Assembly: GCA_020692205.1 (NCBI GenBank)
Contig: JAIMKV010000016.1
Span: 1 to 64,000, forward strand
Source: Myxosarcina sp. GA_180221_E-2-1-MAG-40_15
GTDB lineage: Bacteria > Cyanobacteriota > Cyanobacteriia > Cyanobacteriales > Xenococcaceae
Direction of reading: 5' to 3'
Length of the DNA stretch: 64,000 nucleotides
Shown: in pieces, positions 15,507 to 21,865 of the stretch
Layout of the letters: each line of letters opens with the position of its first letter
How positions within the stretch are numbered: position 1 is the stretch's first letter
Program-made: the position numbers and the translations under genes
Notes under the pieces: generated by a model
Told to the model about the DNA's origin: nothing
Database searches by the model: none
What the model saw: the letters and a program-made list of their open reading frames with translations, nothing else

Positions 15507-16228
15507 ATGGATCACAGTAAAAAAAAATTCTAATCGTAGATGATGACCAAACATTGTGTCATTTAATTGATCGGTTTCTTACTTATAATAATTATCTAAC
15601 TGAAGTCGCTTCTAATTGCACTATAGCTAGGCAAAAGTTGAAAAGCTTTCAGCCAAATCTAGTAATTTTAGATATCAATTTGCCTGATGACACAGGATTG
15701 AATCTTTGTGAAGAGGTCTGCGAAACTAACGCTATGGTTGTTATGCTAAGCTCTATGTCGGAAAACAGCTATATTTTAGAAGCATTCTCCAAAGGAGCAG
15801 ACGACTACATTACCAAACCATTTGATTTACAAATTCTTCAGGCAAGAATTGAAGCTTTGATGAGAAGAGGAAGTAATAATATTACTTCTACTATCAGGAA
15901 AAAATCTATTTTTTTAGATAATCTAATTATTGATTTTTATCGTCGTGAAGTTGTTTTAAATAATCGTCTTGTTCTTCTAACGGCATTAGAATTTGATCTA
16001 CTATATTTTTTAGCTAATAATCCTAATCGTGTCTGGGATCGAGCAGAATTAATCGCGGCAATTTGGCATAACAATAATTATGAAGGAGACGATCGCAAAG
16101 TAGATATTCACATTGGTCGTATTCGTAAAAAAATTGGAGATGTTAACGGAGAATTTATTAAAACAGTTTGGGGTAGGGGCTATATGTTTGAGTTATCTCG
16201 TTCTAATGCAGTAAAATTGGCAGACTGA
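15507..16228 (+). CDS. OmpR-type response regulator with a frameshift at an A9 run
   Basis: A winged-helix response regulator: receiver domain about 1-120 with phospho-acceptor Asp in VILDINLP and the switch Lys in ITKPF, then a Trans_reg_C domain ending in VWGRGYMFE. The normal start would be ATG at 15507 (MDHSKKK) followed by ILIVDDDQTL. However, the run of nine A at 15519-15527 puts the two parts out of frame, and ten A would restore it. In the downstream frame TAA lies at 15518, and the first usual start is a TTG at 15554, which would delete strand beta-1 and the acidic pocket. So the gene is mutated, mis-sequenced, or expressed by slippage. It lies 24 bp before ychF, with no kinase beside it. 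Confidence 0.75.
15519..15527 (+). other. A9 homopolymer at the regulator frameshift
   Basis: Nine consecutive A residues join the start segment (ATG at 15507) to the receiver coding frame in the wrong phase by one base. Poly-A tracts of this length are known sites of RNA polymerase slippage and of sequencing indels. Confidence 0.85.
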
Positions 16229-16252
16229 ACCTAAAACTCATTTTAAGTCGTC

Positions 16253-17344
16253 ATGTTAAGAGCAGGAATTGTCGGATTACCTAATGTTGGTAAATCTACT
16301 ATGTTTAATGCCTTGGTTGCCAATGCTAAGGCAGATGCAGCCAATTTTCCTTTTTGCACCATTGAACCCAATGTCGGGGTAGTATCAGTTCCAGACGATC
16401 GCCTGGAAGTGCTTTCTAAATTATCTAGTTCTCAAAAGCTAGTCCCCACCAGAATCGAATTTGTCGATATTGCAGGATTAGTCAAGGGTGCAAGTCAAGG
16501 GGAAGGATTAGGCAATCAGTTTCTTGCCAATATCCGCGAGGTTGATGCCATTGTCCATATGGTACGTTGTTTTGATGATGACGATATTATTCATGTTGCT
16601 GGTTCTGTTGATCCAGTAAGAGATATTGAAATAATTAATTTAGAGCTAATTTTGGCAGATTTGGCTCAGGTAGAAAAACGGATCACTAGGTTGCGTAAAC
16701 AGGCAAAAAATGATCAAAATGCTCAAGCAGAAGTGGAACTACTAGAAAGGATTAGTCTGGTGTTAAACGATGGTAAATCTGTCCGCAGTATGGATTTATC
16801 TGAAGATGAGCTACTAGTAATTAAACAGTTGGGCTTATTAACTAACAAGCCGATAATTTATGCAACTAATGTTGCTGAAGATGACTTAGCAAGTGGCAAT
16901 AAATGGGTAGAAGAAGTTCGCCAGTTTACCCGTGATGAAGCTGCCAAAGTAGTTATCGTCTCGGCTCAAGTAGAGTCAGAATTGATTGAGCTTTCACCAG
17001 AGGAAACTAGCGATTTTCTCGAAGCTTTAGGGGTGGAAGAAGGTGGTTTAAAATCTTTGATTCGCGCTACTTATGACCTATTAGGATTGCGTACCTACCT
17101 AACGACAGGAGAACAAGAAACCCGCGCCTGGACGATTGTTGCCGGAACTAAAGCACCTCAAGCAGCCGCCGTAATTCATACTGATTTTGAGAAAAAATTT
17201 ATTAAGGCTGAAACTATCAGCTATCAAGATTTAATTACAACAGGTTCTAAAAATGCAGCCCGAGAAAAAGGTTTGCTGCGATTAGAGGGTAAAGATTATG
17301 TGGTTCAAGAGGGTGATGTAATTGAATTTCGGATCGGCGGTTAA
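16253..17344 (+). CDS. ychF: redox-regulated ATPase YchF (Obg-like)
   Basis: A universally conserved Obg-family P-loop NTPase that prefers ATP. It associates with ribosomes and is linked to the oxidative stress response. The 363 residues match the family. The P-loop GLPNVGKST is at about residues 8-16, DIAGLVKGASQGEGLGNQF forms switch II, and the NKxD-type motif is ATNVAED. A coiled-coil insert at about 130-170 and a C-terminal TGS domain (VIHTDFEKKFIKAETISYQD) complete it. It follows the response regulator by 24 bp. Confidence 0.96.
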   Translation: MLRAGIVGLPNVGKSTMFNALVANAKADAANFPFCTIEPNVGVVSVPDDRLEVLSKLSSSQKLVPTRIEFVDIAGLVKGASQGEGLGNQFLANIREVDAIVHMVRCFDDDDIIHVAGSVDPVRDIEIINLELILADLAQVEKRITRLRKQAKNDQNAQAEVELLERISLVLNDGKSVRSMDLSEDELLVIKQLGLLTNKPIIYATNVAEDDLASGNKWVEEVRQFTRDEAAKVVIVSAQVESELIELSPEETSDFLEALGVEEGGLKSLIRATYDLLGLRTYLTTGEQETRAWTIVAGTKAPQAAAVIHTDFEKKFIKAETISYQDLITTGSKNAAREKGLLRLEGKDYVVQEGDVIEFRIGG

Positions 17345-17564: not shown

Positions 17565-20141
17565 ATGAATTTACCCGATCTAGTCTCCTTCCTGCAACAA
17601 AAAACTTGTCTGGGCAATCTATCAGCCGAAGTTTTAATGGCGATCGCTGCTAATTTGACCGAACAAACTATTGCGGCTAATGAAATTGTCATTACTGAAA
17701 ATACTGAGCCTCAGGGATTATATATTGTTCGAGCTGGAAAGTTAGCCAGCAATAGTCACAGATTACTCCGCCGTAAAACGACGGAGCCTGCTGTGACCGT
17801 TGGTCAATCAGAATCGAATCAAAGTAGTTTGCTCTCGGGAACAGTACTAAATTTATATGCTCTATTACTCAATCAGCCAACGCAATATCAGGTCAAGACT
17901 ATTGACGAAGCCGAAGTTTGGTGGCTCAATAGTTTAGAGTTTAAACAACTAATTCAAAAATATCCTGAAATCAGCCAGACTTTTTCCCAACAGTTGGCTA
18001 CAGAAGTCAAAGAATTATCCCAACAACTATTATTTGAACAAGAACGTCAGGTAATTTTAAGACCTTATTTGGTTAGCAAAGCTAAGCGAGGGGTTATCGG
18101 GAAAAGCCGTTATGCTACCAGATTGCGATCGCAGATTAAACAGGCTTCAGAAAGTAGAGCCTCGATCTTACTTTTTGGTGAACCAGGATTAGAAAAGGAT
18201 AACCTGGCTGCACTGATTCATTTTGGTTCAGCTGATCGTCGGCAGCCGATCATTCAGGTTGATTGCTCGAAACTACAGATTAGCGGTGCAGAGTTATTTG
18301 GTCGCAGTGGTGGAAAACCAGGATTAATTGCCAGTCTGCAATTAGGCACTTTAGTTTTGAATAATGTTCATCTGTTGCCAGCGGAATTAATACCGGCGAT
18401 CGCCAATTTAGTTGCCACAAGTCAATACACTCCTGTAATCCGCCCTGGAGGGGAAACTACCGAATCTCAAACTTCTCAAGCCAGAATTATTTTAATTTCA
18501 GAACAGACAATACCTGCGATTAATTCTGTGGTTGACCAGATCATTAAAGTCCCTCCCTTAAGAGTTCGTAAAGTCGATCTAGATGAACAGATTAACTATT
18601 ATTTAAATCTAATTGGACGAAACAAATTTTTGGGCAAACCCAAAATTACTCCCGAAGCCATCAGAAACCTTCAAACTTATGACTTTCCTAATAATCTACG
18701 GGAGTTAGAGAGCATCATTGAAAGAGCTTTAACTCAACTCCAGGGCTGTGATGATATTACCGAAGAAGTAGTGTGGCAATCCCAAAGCAAAAAGAAACAG
18801 TATCGTCTAAATCTGCTCAATAAATATCCCCAGCTGCGCTATTTTCTGCGGAGTGATTGGTTTCCTGACAGGATTAACTATGGCTTTACCCTGAGCTTTT
18901 TTGCCTTCATTGTTTTAGTTCTGTTTATCGCTCCTCAAAACCGCCAGGAAAACTTTGCACTTAATTTATTTTGGGCGTGGTGGTGGCCATTAATCTTAAT
19001 TGGATTTCCTTTCGTTGGCAGACTGTGGTGCGCGGTATGTCCTTTTATGATCTATGGCGAAATTACCCAAAAGCTGTCCTTAATTTTGTTTCCCAGACAA
19101 CTAAAAAAATGGCCTAGACAGCATGCCGAACAATGGGGAGGCTGGTTTATGTTCGGTTTATTTGCTCTGATCTTGCTTTGGGAAGAACTGTGGAATCTGG
19201 AAAATACCGCTTATCTTTCCGCTTGCTTGCTTTTACTGATTACCGCTGGGGCAATGATTTTTTCAGCCATTTTTGAACGTCGCTTCTGGTGTCGCTATCT
19301 CTGTCCAATTGGGGGCATGAATGGTTTATTTGCCAAACTTTCGATGACGGAATTACGTGCGCAACAGGGAACTTGTTCGGCAGAATGTACGACCTATCAA
19401 TGTTACAAAGGCGGTGCTGCTAAAGGGGAAGGACAAGAAACTAACGGCTGTCCTTTATATTCCCATCCCGCACAGCTTACTGACAATCGAGATTGTGTTT
19501 TGTGCATGACCTGTCTCAAAGCTTGTCCCCATCGCTCAGTTGAGTTTAATTTACGTCCCCCTGGAATTGAACTATGGACTACCCATACTCCCCATAGTTA
19601 TGAAGTGGCGTTATTATTTTTGTTGTTGAATGTGGTCTTTTTGCATCGGTTACCTGAAATATCAACTTGGTTGAATCTAGATCTGCATTTGGAGCAATTT
19701 AATCACCATGCTTTAGTATCTATTGTGGTTTTAAGTACGCCATTTATCGTACCGTTAGTAGCTCAAGCCCTAAATATATTGCTCGGTAAACTAAATCGTC
19801 AATATAAACCTCGTAGATTTATTGAATTAGCTTATGGCTATTTGCCTTTAGTGTTGGCAGGTAATTTGGCACACTATCTGCGTCTTGGTTTAGCAGAAGG
19901 TGGCAAGATCTTACCCGTGACGATGGCAACCTTTGGCTTAAAAGGTTCAAGTTTTCCTGTACTCCTAGCTCATCCTGCGGTAATTTCTTTCTTACAAGGA
20001 ACTTCCCTGACTACGGGCGTGTTGTTGTCTATCCTCTTGACTCAAAAGATCGCCCGACAGCAGTTTAAGTACTTGCTTCCTCAGCATTTGGCGATCGCGC
20101 TTTTGGCTGGCGGAATGTGGCAGGTAATTGTCGGGTTTTAG
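17565..20141 (+). CDS. cyclic-nucleotide-binding / degenerate AAA+ / membrane polyferredoxin fusion protein
   Basis: An 858-residue mosaic. Residues 1-150 are a CRP-type cyclic-nucleotide-binding fold with no clear phosphate-binding Arg. Residues 170-400 resemble the sigma-54-activator AAA+ domain, but the Walker A region reads GEPGLEKDNL, the GAFTGA loop is missing and the Walker B acids are replaced (LVLNNVHLLP). Membrane segments flank two NapH/NosR-like Cys clusters, CAVCP (489-493) and CRYLCP (576-581). A later CVLCMTCLKACP (644-655) is a [4Fe-4S] site. More membrane helices follow. Cyanobacteria lack sigma-54, so the AAA+ part cannot be a normal activator, and membrane electron transfer is the likely core job. 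Residues about 63-82 come from an inserted palindromic repeat. It converges with ureC at 11 bp. Confidence 0.85.
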   Translation: MNLPDLVSFLQQKTCLGNLSAEVLMAIAANLTEQTIAANEIVITENTEPQGLYIVRAGKLASNSHRLLRRKTTEPAVTVGQSESNQSSLLSGTVLNLYALLLNQPTQYQVKTIDEAEVWWLNSLEFKQLIQKYPEISQTFSQQLATEVKELSQQLLFEQERQVILRPYLVSKAKRGVIGKSRYATRLRSQIKQASESRASILLFGEPGLEKDNLAALIHFGSADRRQPIIQVDCSKLQISGAELFGRSGGKPGLIASLQLGTLVLNNVHLLPAELIPAIANLVATSQYTPVIRPGGETTESQTSQARIILISEQTIPAINSVVDQIIKVPPLRVRKVDLDEQINYYLNLIGRNKFLGKPKITPEAIRNLQTYDFPNNLRELESIIERALTQLQGCDDITEEVVWQSQSKKKQYRLNLLNKYPQLRYFLRSDWFPDRINYGFTLSFFAFIVLVLFIAPQNRQENFALNLFWAWWWPLILIGFPFVGRLWCAVCPFMIYGEITQKLSLILFPRQLKKWPRQHAEQWGGWFMFGLFALILLWEELWNLENTAYLSACLLLLITAGAMIFSAIFERRFWCRYLCPIGGMNGLFAKLSMTELRAQQGTCSAECTTYQCYKGGAAKGEGQETNGCPLYSHPAQLTDNRDCVLCMTCLKACPHRSVEFNLRPPGIELWTTHTPHSYEVALLFLLLNVVFLHRLPEISTWLNLDLHLEQFNHHALVSIVVLSTPFIVPLVAQALNILLGKLNRQYKPRRFIELAYGYLPLVLAGNLAHYLRLGLAEGGKILPVTMATFGLKGSSFPVLLAHPAVISFLQGTSLTTGVLLSILLTQKIARQQFKYLLPQHLAIALLAGGMWQVIVGF
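17755..17807 (+). repeat. palindromic repeat, copy B (inside coding sequence)
   Basis: The same arms as intergenic copy A: GTCACAGATTACTCCG at the left, ACGACGGAGC...CTGTGAC at the right, then the shared TTGGTCAA tail. About 22 central bases of copy A are missing. It is read in frame as residues 63-82 of the 858-residue fusion protein (NSHRLLRRKTTEPAVTVGQS), in a loop of the cyclic-nucleotide-binding domain. Confidence 0.85.
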
Positions 20142-20152
20142 TCAAGCAAAAT

Positions 20153-21865
20153 CTAAAACAAAAAATATCGTTGTGTCATTGGTAAAACTGTAGCGGGTTC
20201 ACATGTTAACAATTCGCCATCGGCTCGCACTTCATAGGTTTCGGGATTGACTTCGATATTAGGTAAAGCAGCGTTGAGCTTCATGTCTGACTTACTCAAA
20301 TTACGAGTATTGCTAACGGCGATCGCCCTTTTAAGTAAGCCAATTTGTTCGGGGATACCTGCCTCGATCGCAGCTTGGGACATGAAGGAAAGGGAAGTAG
20401 CCGTCCTTGCATCGCCATAACTACCAAACATCGGACGCATATAAACAGGCTGGGGAGTAGGAATACTAGCATTAGGATCGCCCATTTGCGCATAGGCAAT
20501 CATACCGCCTTTAATTACAACCTCTGGCTTGACCCCAAACATGGCGGGTTTCCAGATACAGATATCAGCCAACTTGCCCCCTTCAATTGAACCAACATAA
20601 TTGGCTATGCCGTGAGCGATCGCGGGATTGATGGTATATTTGGCGATATATCGTTTGGCGCGGAAGTTATCAGCTTTTGACTCAGTCGGAGCAGCAAGTC
20701 CACCCCGTTGCAGCTTCATTTTGTGTGCCGTCTGCCAGGTGCGAATTATGGTTTCTCCGACTCTTCCCATTGCTTGAGAATCAGAGGAAATCATGCTAAA
20801 TGCCCCTAAATCGTGGAGAATATCTTCTGCTGCAATAGTTTCTTGGCGGATACGAGACTCAGCAAAGGCTACATCTTCGGGAATGCTTTTATCAAGGTGA
20901 TGACACACCATCAGCATATCTAAATGTTCTTCTAAAGTATTGACGGTAAAAGGACGGGTAGGATTAGTCGAAGAAGGTAAAACATTACTCTGACCGCAAA
21001 CTTTAATAATATCAGGAGCGTGTCCACCGCCAGCTCCTTCCGTGTGGTAAGTATGAATGACGCGATCTTTAAACGCAGCGATCGTATTTTCGACAAAACC
21101 CGCCTCATTGAGAGTATCGGTATGGATTGCTACCTGAACATCATAGCGATCGGCAACACTCAAACAAGTATCAATCGCCTTGGGGGTTGTTCCCCAATCT
21201 TCGTGCAGCTTTAGCCCCATTGCACCTGCCTGTAGCTGTTCCACTAGCCCTTCGGGTTTGGCACTGTTACCTTTACCCAAAAAGCCCAAATTCATCGGAA
21301 AAGCGTCCGCAGCCTGAAGCATCCGCCAGATATTCCACGCTCCAGGAGTACAGGTGGTCGCGTTTGTACCTGTAGCAGGGCCAGTACCACCGCCGATCAT
21401 TGTCGTAATCCCAGAGGCGATCGCTGTTTCGATCTGTTGGGGACAAATAAAGTGAATATGGCTATCAATACCACCAGCAGTAACTATATGCCCTTCCCCA
21501 GCCATAACTTCGGTTGCCGCTCCAATGATGATATCTACATCATCTTGAATCTGAGGATTGCCTGCCTTACCTATTTGAGCAATTTTACCGTCTTTAATGC
21601 CAATATCAGCTTTAACAACTCCCCACCAATCAAGAATTAAAGCGTTAGTAATCACCATGTCTACCGCCCCATCGGCCCGGGAAATCGGTGATTGCCCCAT
21701 ACCGTCGCGGATTACCTTACCACCACCAAATTTAACCTCGTCGCCGTAGGTAGTGTAATCTTGTTCCACTTCGATGAACAATTCTGTGTCCGCTAACCTA
21801 ACGCGATCGCCCACAGTAGGACCATAAGTATCTGCATACGTCCGCCGATCCATGTGATAGCTCAT
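20153..21865 (-). CDS. ureC: urease alpha subunit UreC
   Basis: The catalytic nickel subunit of urease, which splits urea into ammonia and carbamate. The 570 residues are full length. It shows the HIHFICPQQ nickel-site segment, the carbamylated lysine in GLKLHEDWG, the substrate-loop [22 protein letters not shown] and the GRVGE segment. ureA, ureB and accessory genes are absent from this window, and dispersed urease genes are common in cyanobacteria. The 3' end converges with the polyferredoxin fusion gene. The ATG at 21865 gives the standard [17 protein letters not shown] start. Confidence 0.97.

Follow-up and report, generated by a model that had tools for sequence, protein, structure and literature searches.

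The components that link the quinone pool to cytoplasmic iron-sulphur carriers are still debated in cyanobacteria. The closest described membrane systems are the NapH/MauN and NosR/NirI/RdhC proteins and CcoG, which belongs to the same broad polyferredoxin membrane family; on the ATPase side, they are the enhancer-binding proteins (EBPs) NtrC, PspF and NtrX, together with the EBP-like, c-di-GMP-binding VpsR, a DNA-binding regulator that acts without sigma-54. The membrane segment of NapH has been proposed to oxidise quinol, and the NosR/NirI relatives were first taken as regulators, with the NosR type later re-assigned to electron transfer (PMC5928378). CcoG is a cupric reductase (PMC8456105). 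We analysed a window of 64,000 nucleotides (the whole stretch of DNA under study) from Myxosarcina sp. GA_180221_E-2-1-MAG-40_15, in which a single gene joins modules of both kinds.

The gene is a forward-strand open reading frame (ORF) with an ATG start that encodes 858 amino acids, and its exact bounds were confirmed (Table 1). From the N-terminus, the protein consists of a cyclic-nucleotide-binding (CNB)-like domain, a sigma-54-activator-type AAA+ domain, its lid, a NapH-like four-helix module, a ferredoxin domain and five more helices. Pfam searches recovered cNMP_binding at residues 34–133 (30.7 bits, cut-off 27.5), Sigma54_activat at residues 178–315 (45 bits, cut-off 20), AAA_lid_14 at residues 333–394 and Fer4_5 in two stretches. 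The NCBIfam match to NapH/MauN (TIGR02163) spans residues 483–662, and its 49 bits fall far under the 213-bit cut-off. An AlphaFold model built with 44 homologues has moderate confidence in the head and the membrane part and poor confidence in the ferredoxin part, with a pTM of 0.47 and an unreliable relative orientation of its domains.

Table 1. Features of the fused gene, in window coordinates (aa, residues of the encoded protein)
Feature	Position	Strand	Basis
Whole ORF: CNB-like, pseudo-EBP AAA+ and NapH-like Fe-S membrane protein	17565..20141	+	Pfam/NCBIfam; family in 104/386 genomes
CNB-like domain, aa 1-150	17565..18014	+	PF00027, 30.7 bits; alignment with CRP; phosphate-binding Glu and Arg absent
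Sigma-54-activator-type AAA+ domain without GAFTGA loop, aa 173-320	18081..18524	+	PF00158, 45 bits; fold matches
Altered Walker A, GEPGLEKDN, aa 205-213	18177..18203	+	Alignment
Altered Walker B, LVLNN, aa 263-267	18351..18365	+	Alignment; in clade A, N266 in 122/125 and N267 in 124/125
AAA+ lid with conserved FPNNLRELE sensor-II region, aa 333-394	18561..18746	+	PF25601, 37 bits
Four-helix NapH-like membrane module, aa 432-570	18858..19274	+	TIGR02163, 49 bits (below cut-off); helix prediction; charge topology
CAVCP motif, predicted cytoplasmic end of helix 2, aa 489-493	19029..19043	+	C489 and C492 invariant, 146/146
CRYLCP motif after helix 4, aa 576-581	19290..19307	+	C576 and C580 invariant, 146/146
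Ferredoxin-like domain, aa 601-672; invariant C604, C608, C613, C629, C644, C647, C650 and C654	19365..19580	+	Alignment
C-terminal membrane module, about five helices, aa 673-858	19581..20138	+	Helices; charge topology; common to Deinococcus/haloarchaeal stand-alone proteins

Our preferred reading, to which we give about an even chance, is that the gene encodes a cytoplasm-facing membrane protein for electron transfer of the quinone/ferredoxin type, one of the polyferredoxins related to NapH, CcoG and NosR, whose head has a regulatory or oligomerising role and does not hydrolyse ATP. Electrons would be exchanged between the quinone pool of the membrane and a soluble partner in the cytoplasm, and their path would run through the cysteines of the CxxCP/CxxxCP motifs and two ferredoxin-type [4Fe-4S] clusters. 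The CNB-like and EBP-type AAA+ head would neither hydrolyse ATP nor activate sigma-54; it would persist as a conserved scaffold for oligomerisation or regulation, setting when or with whom the membrane half reacts. We favour a quinone-linked electron-transfer function because of the quinol proposal for NapH and the re-assignment of NosR-type proteins (PMC5928378). The preliminary description of this gene had likewise suggested redox gating and electron carriage, which we regard as plausible.

The gene belongs to a family found in 104 of 386 genomes of the cyanobacterial phylum, and a scan of public genomes gave 371 related stretches. Literature searches for this domain architecture found no paper describing the family; slr0593 of Synechocystis, a "cAMP binding membrane protein", is our guess at a candidate member. 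The homologues form three groups: clade A, which contains the window protein (125 sequences), a picocyanobacterial clade, and the sister clade B (38% identity). The tree was rooted on Deinococcus and haloarchaeal proteins, whose branches are very long, and its root is uncertain; consequently, it does not fix the order of the Walker A and Walker B losses described below. Within clade A, mean identity to the window protein is highest in the ferredoxin domain (91%), followed by helices 1–4 (82%), the AAA core (61%) and the last helices (60%), and is lowest in the CNB-like domain (41%). Pairwise NG86 estimates of dN/dS, some with saturated dS, were about 0.02–0.15 across domains in most comparisons, as expected under purifying selection in every domain. 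The number of genomes, the low dN/dS and the 12 cysteines that are invariant in all 146 aligned homologues together argue that the architecture did not arise by chance. This is a widespread, conserved cyanobacterial family and not a decaying copy. A relic without function might be read from the loss of several motifs and from the few copies elsewhere that are split or stopped (G255, G340, G205 and G076), but the range of dN/dS, the invariant cysteines and a Walker B fixed as Asn-Asn without drift make that reading scarcely credible. In other genomes, three homologues are broken into two ORFs (L139, L140 and L145) and one has an internal stop (G076:C67:127332-129881), which suggests occasional decay or assembly error there.

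The cysteines of the membrane half are the candidate electron path. The eight within the ferredoxin domain appear suited to two [4Fe-4S] clusters, which the domain probably binds, judging from its sequence. About nine helices are predicted, and the loop charges place every cysteine motif, as well as the ferredoxin domain, on the cytoplasmic side, the orientation that we take as probable. The histidines of the C-terminal helices vary among the 146 homologues, so no haem is assignable. Taken alone, the membrane half matched no solved structure at E <= 0.001 in a fold search; the models have low confidence in their ferredoxin part. As far as sequence can tell, the likeness to NapH/MauN lies in a four-helix module that has two motifs of the CxxCP/CxxxCP type, after which come two cluster motifs of the ferredoxin type. 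The window protein differs from NapH/MauN in its score (49 versus 213 bits), in its extra C-terminal five-helix module and its CNB and AAA head, and in having no nap genes alongside. NosR, NirI and RdhC have in common with it a membrane module with paired cysteine motifs, and share a history of annotation as regulators, but no FMN-binding domain was detected in the window protein by Pfam. The preliminary description had proposed a fusion to NapH/NosR-like iron-sulphur segments; the NapH part is borne out by the TIGR02163-like match and by the paired cysteine and ferredoxin motifs, and the NosR part is to be replaced by NapH-like.

The membrane and ferredoxin half also occurs by itself. Stand-alone proteins, named "4Fe-4S binding protein", are found in Deinococcus ficus (WP_027463891, about 30% identity) and in haloarchaea; identity over this whole half is about 24-30%. 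These proteins have neither a CNB domain nor an AAA head, and in the haloarchaeal proteins the first ferredoxin motif is incomplete. Because the module stands alone in Deinococcus and haloarchaea, it looks like the older core, to which the head was later added, though the uncertain root of the tree limits this reading. With the Deinococcus protein as a query against the phylum, nearly all strong matches in photosynthetic cyanobacteria lay inside AAA-fused ORFs; non-photosynthetic relatives gave weak matches about 430 aa long. A rare stand-alone homologue of 473 aa, without the AAA head, was seen in a cyanobacterium of the same order (L184, 7652-9073).

The stand-alone relatives in Deinococcus and haloarchaea have no denitrification genes or other telling neighbours. 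Just upstream of the Deinococcus ficus gene, its end overlapping by 4 bases, lies a His-rich ORF whose product looks exported (L162, 7042-7968). A product of this kind could bind metal, and metal reduction, the activity of CcoG (PMC8456105), is a possible activity of the window protein, whose cysteine motifs and clusters would then serve a CcoG-like reductase of, for example, cupric ions. We consider such an activity improbable, since the His-rich ORF matches no Pfam family, no copper genes were recognised beside either clade and, unlike CcoG, the window protein has no recognised copper or cbb3 gene context.

Both in sequence and in fold, the AAA+ core and lid of the head resemble those of the EBPs NtrC, PspF and NtrX. 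In a Foldseek search, the head of the full model matched the structures of NtrX, NtrC, FlrC and VpsR with E-values of ~1e-9 to 1e-11, about 1e-10 for NtrX and FlrC, and VpsR is the best sequence match among solved structures. The features that distinguish a working EBP are missing: compared with these proteins, the window protein has no GAFTGA, has lost the Walker B acids, has no DNA-binding domain, and belongs to a phylum sample without sigma-54. Alignment (with PspF and CRP comparison sequences entered by hand) agrees with the motifs quoted in the preliminary description, namely GEPGLEKDN, LVLNN and the missing GAFTGA insertion relative to PspF; Gly210 is replaced by Glu in Walker A, and the Walker B acids by Asn-Asn at 266–267. 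The claim that all three motifs are altered thus holds for the window protein and fails for the family as a whole. Walker A in clade A is mostly GEPGLEKDN, with GEPGLGKD kept in 16 members, and clade B retains an intact GxGKT, whereas its Walker B is mostly DN. In the picocyanobacterial clade, Walker A is similar to that of clade A, and Walker B mostly has D, never E. Across the alignment of 146 homologues, the catalytic Walker B Glu is absent in every clade and GAFTGA in all three, and the loss of these two elements, not the loss of Walker A, is the family-wide constant. Degradation of this copy only, which would have told against the re-use of an old ATPase, is largely contradicted by the Asn-Asn common to clade A; it is correct in part, in that clade B keeps an intact P-loop and the 16 clade A members its glycine, yet all with the Glu lost. 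Lid columns N377, E380 and L381 are conserved in all clades, and the head is present in 108 of 110 matched places, missing only from two fragments.

Profile searches found no Sigma54_DBD in the window's genome and no Sigma54_CBD above the model cut-off in any of the 386 cyanobacterial genomes, and the absence of sigma-54 from cyanobacteria is also stated in PMC12282138. The earlier assertion that this lineage lacks sigma-54 is therefore upheld, and the rpoN gene that would have told against the re-use of an old ATPase was not found. Overall, the EBP fold and lid are present, and GAFTGA, the hydrolysis residues and a host sigma-54 are absent. The head has probably ceased to hydrolyse ATP, given its motifs. 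The proposal that an old ATPase was re-used as a scaffold fits a non-canonical AAA+ head that is fused to a NapH-type segment and conserved as a family in hosts without sigma-54. The aligned segment of VpsR also lacks GAFTGA and has an altered Walker B (LLLND), and VpsR acts without sigma-54, as would a regulator of transcription of the VpsR/TyrR type tethered to the membrane. Such a regulator is nevertheless very unlikely here, because the AAA lid of the window protein runs straight into membrane helices, with the Fe-S half in the place of DNA binding, and no Fis/HTH domain was detected. Both the transcription activator and the relic are disfavoured.

Gating by a cyclic nucleotide is unsupported, because the pocket residues are lost and 27 of 110 homologues have no CNB domain at all. 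In the alignment with CRP, the window protein has Leu and Thr in place of the phosphate-binding Glu and Arg, and both residues are missing in the two CNB-bearing clades. The domain is present in 81 of the 110 matched places, and the picocyanobacterial clade is without it.

Gene neighbourhoods differ between the clades. Clade A loci have no conserved neighbours, and none that names a substrate. In clade B, cysK lies directly downstream on the same strand at 9 of 16 loci, each from a different family or record, and the surroundings of these and other clade B loci include SQR-like, rhodanese, persulphide-dioxygenase-like hydrolase and HdrB-like genes and petC; a psbA nearby scores just under its cut-off. 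These islands point to a sulphide or low-oxygen physiology for clade B, a setting that could by analogy extend to clade A. Papers on sulphidic cyanobacteria, searched by term, do not mention the gene. Such islands would also suit a redox sensor, in which the Fe-S membrane half would read the redox state of quinones or thiols and a partner protein would receive the signal through the head. Its head is composed wholly of regulatory-type domains and is almost never lost, and the NosR/NirI relatives were themselves first thought to be regulators (PMC5928378). However, there is no recognisable output domain, the membrane core occurs without the head in other phyla, and the same literature moved NosR from regulator to electron transfer (PMC5928378); we judge the sensor possible, though unlikely.

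Returning to electron transfer, the reading is carried by the 12 invariant cysteines, the NapH-like match, the conservation gradient, the stand-alone module of Deinococcus and haloarchaea, the near-obligate AAA fusion, the sulphide islands of clade B and the cytoplasmic charge pattern, and weighed down by the sub-cut-off NapH score, the lack of telling clade A neighbours, the low-confidence ferredoxin model, the lack of a structure match for the membrane half and the variable histidines. A sharper version, in which a cyanobacteria-specific, head-gated membrane quinone:ferredoxin oxidoreductase uses its pseudo-AAA ring to control flow between the plastoquinone pool and soluble ferredoxin or sulphur-metabolism partners, is doubtful. 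If electron transfer is correct, about a quarter of the sampled genomes in the phylum hold a membrane redox protein, as yet uncharacterised, by which the quinone pool may be linked to iron-sulphur carriers of the cytoplasm, and the family would clearly illustrate how a transcription-factor ATPase became the control element of an electron-transfer protein. Graded intermediates are available for study, with the P-loop intact in clade B and the catalytic Walker B Glu lost everywhere, and the link of clade B to sulphide genes provides a testable physiological setting.

Several smaller observations concern individual loci. In the window, a response regulator and a YchF-type GTPase lie upstream (15554-17344) and a urease alpha subunit lies downstream on the other strand (20153-21865); none looks functionally linked. 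The cysK-adjacent clade B homologues are L166 (9863-13500), L167 (9866-13557), L168, L170, L171, L172, L177, L178 and L145, and two of these loci are on plasmids, in Pseudanabaena galeata and Aulosira laxa. Second clade A copies occur in two genomes that already have one (L143 in G054 and L144 in G066), so the gene duplicates at times.
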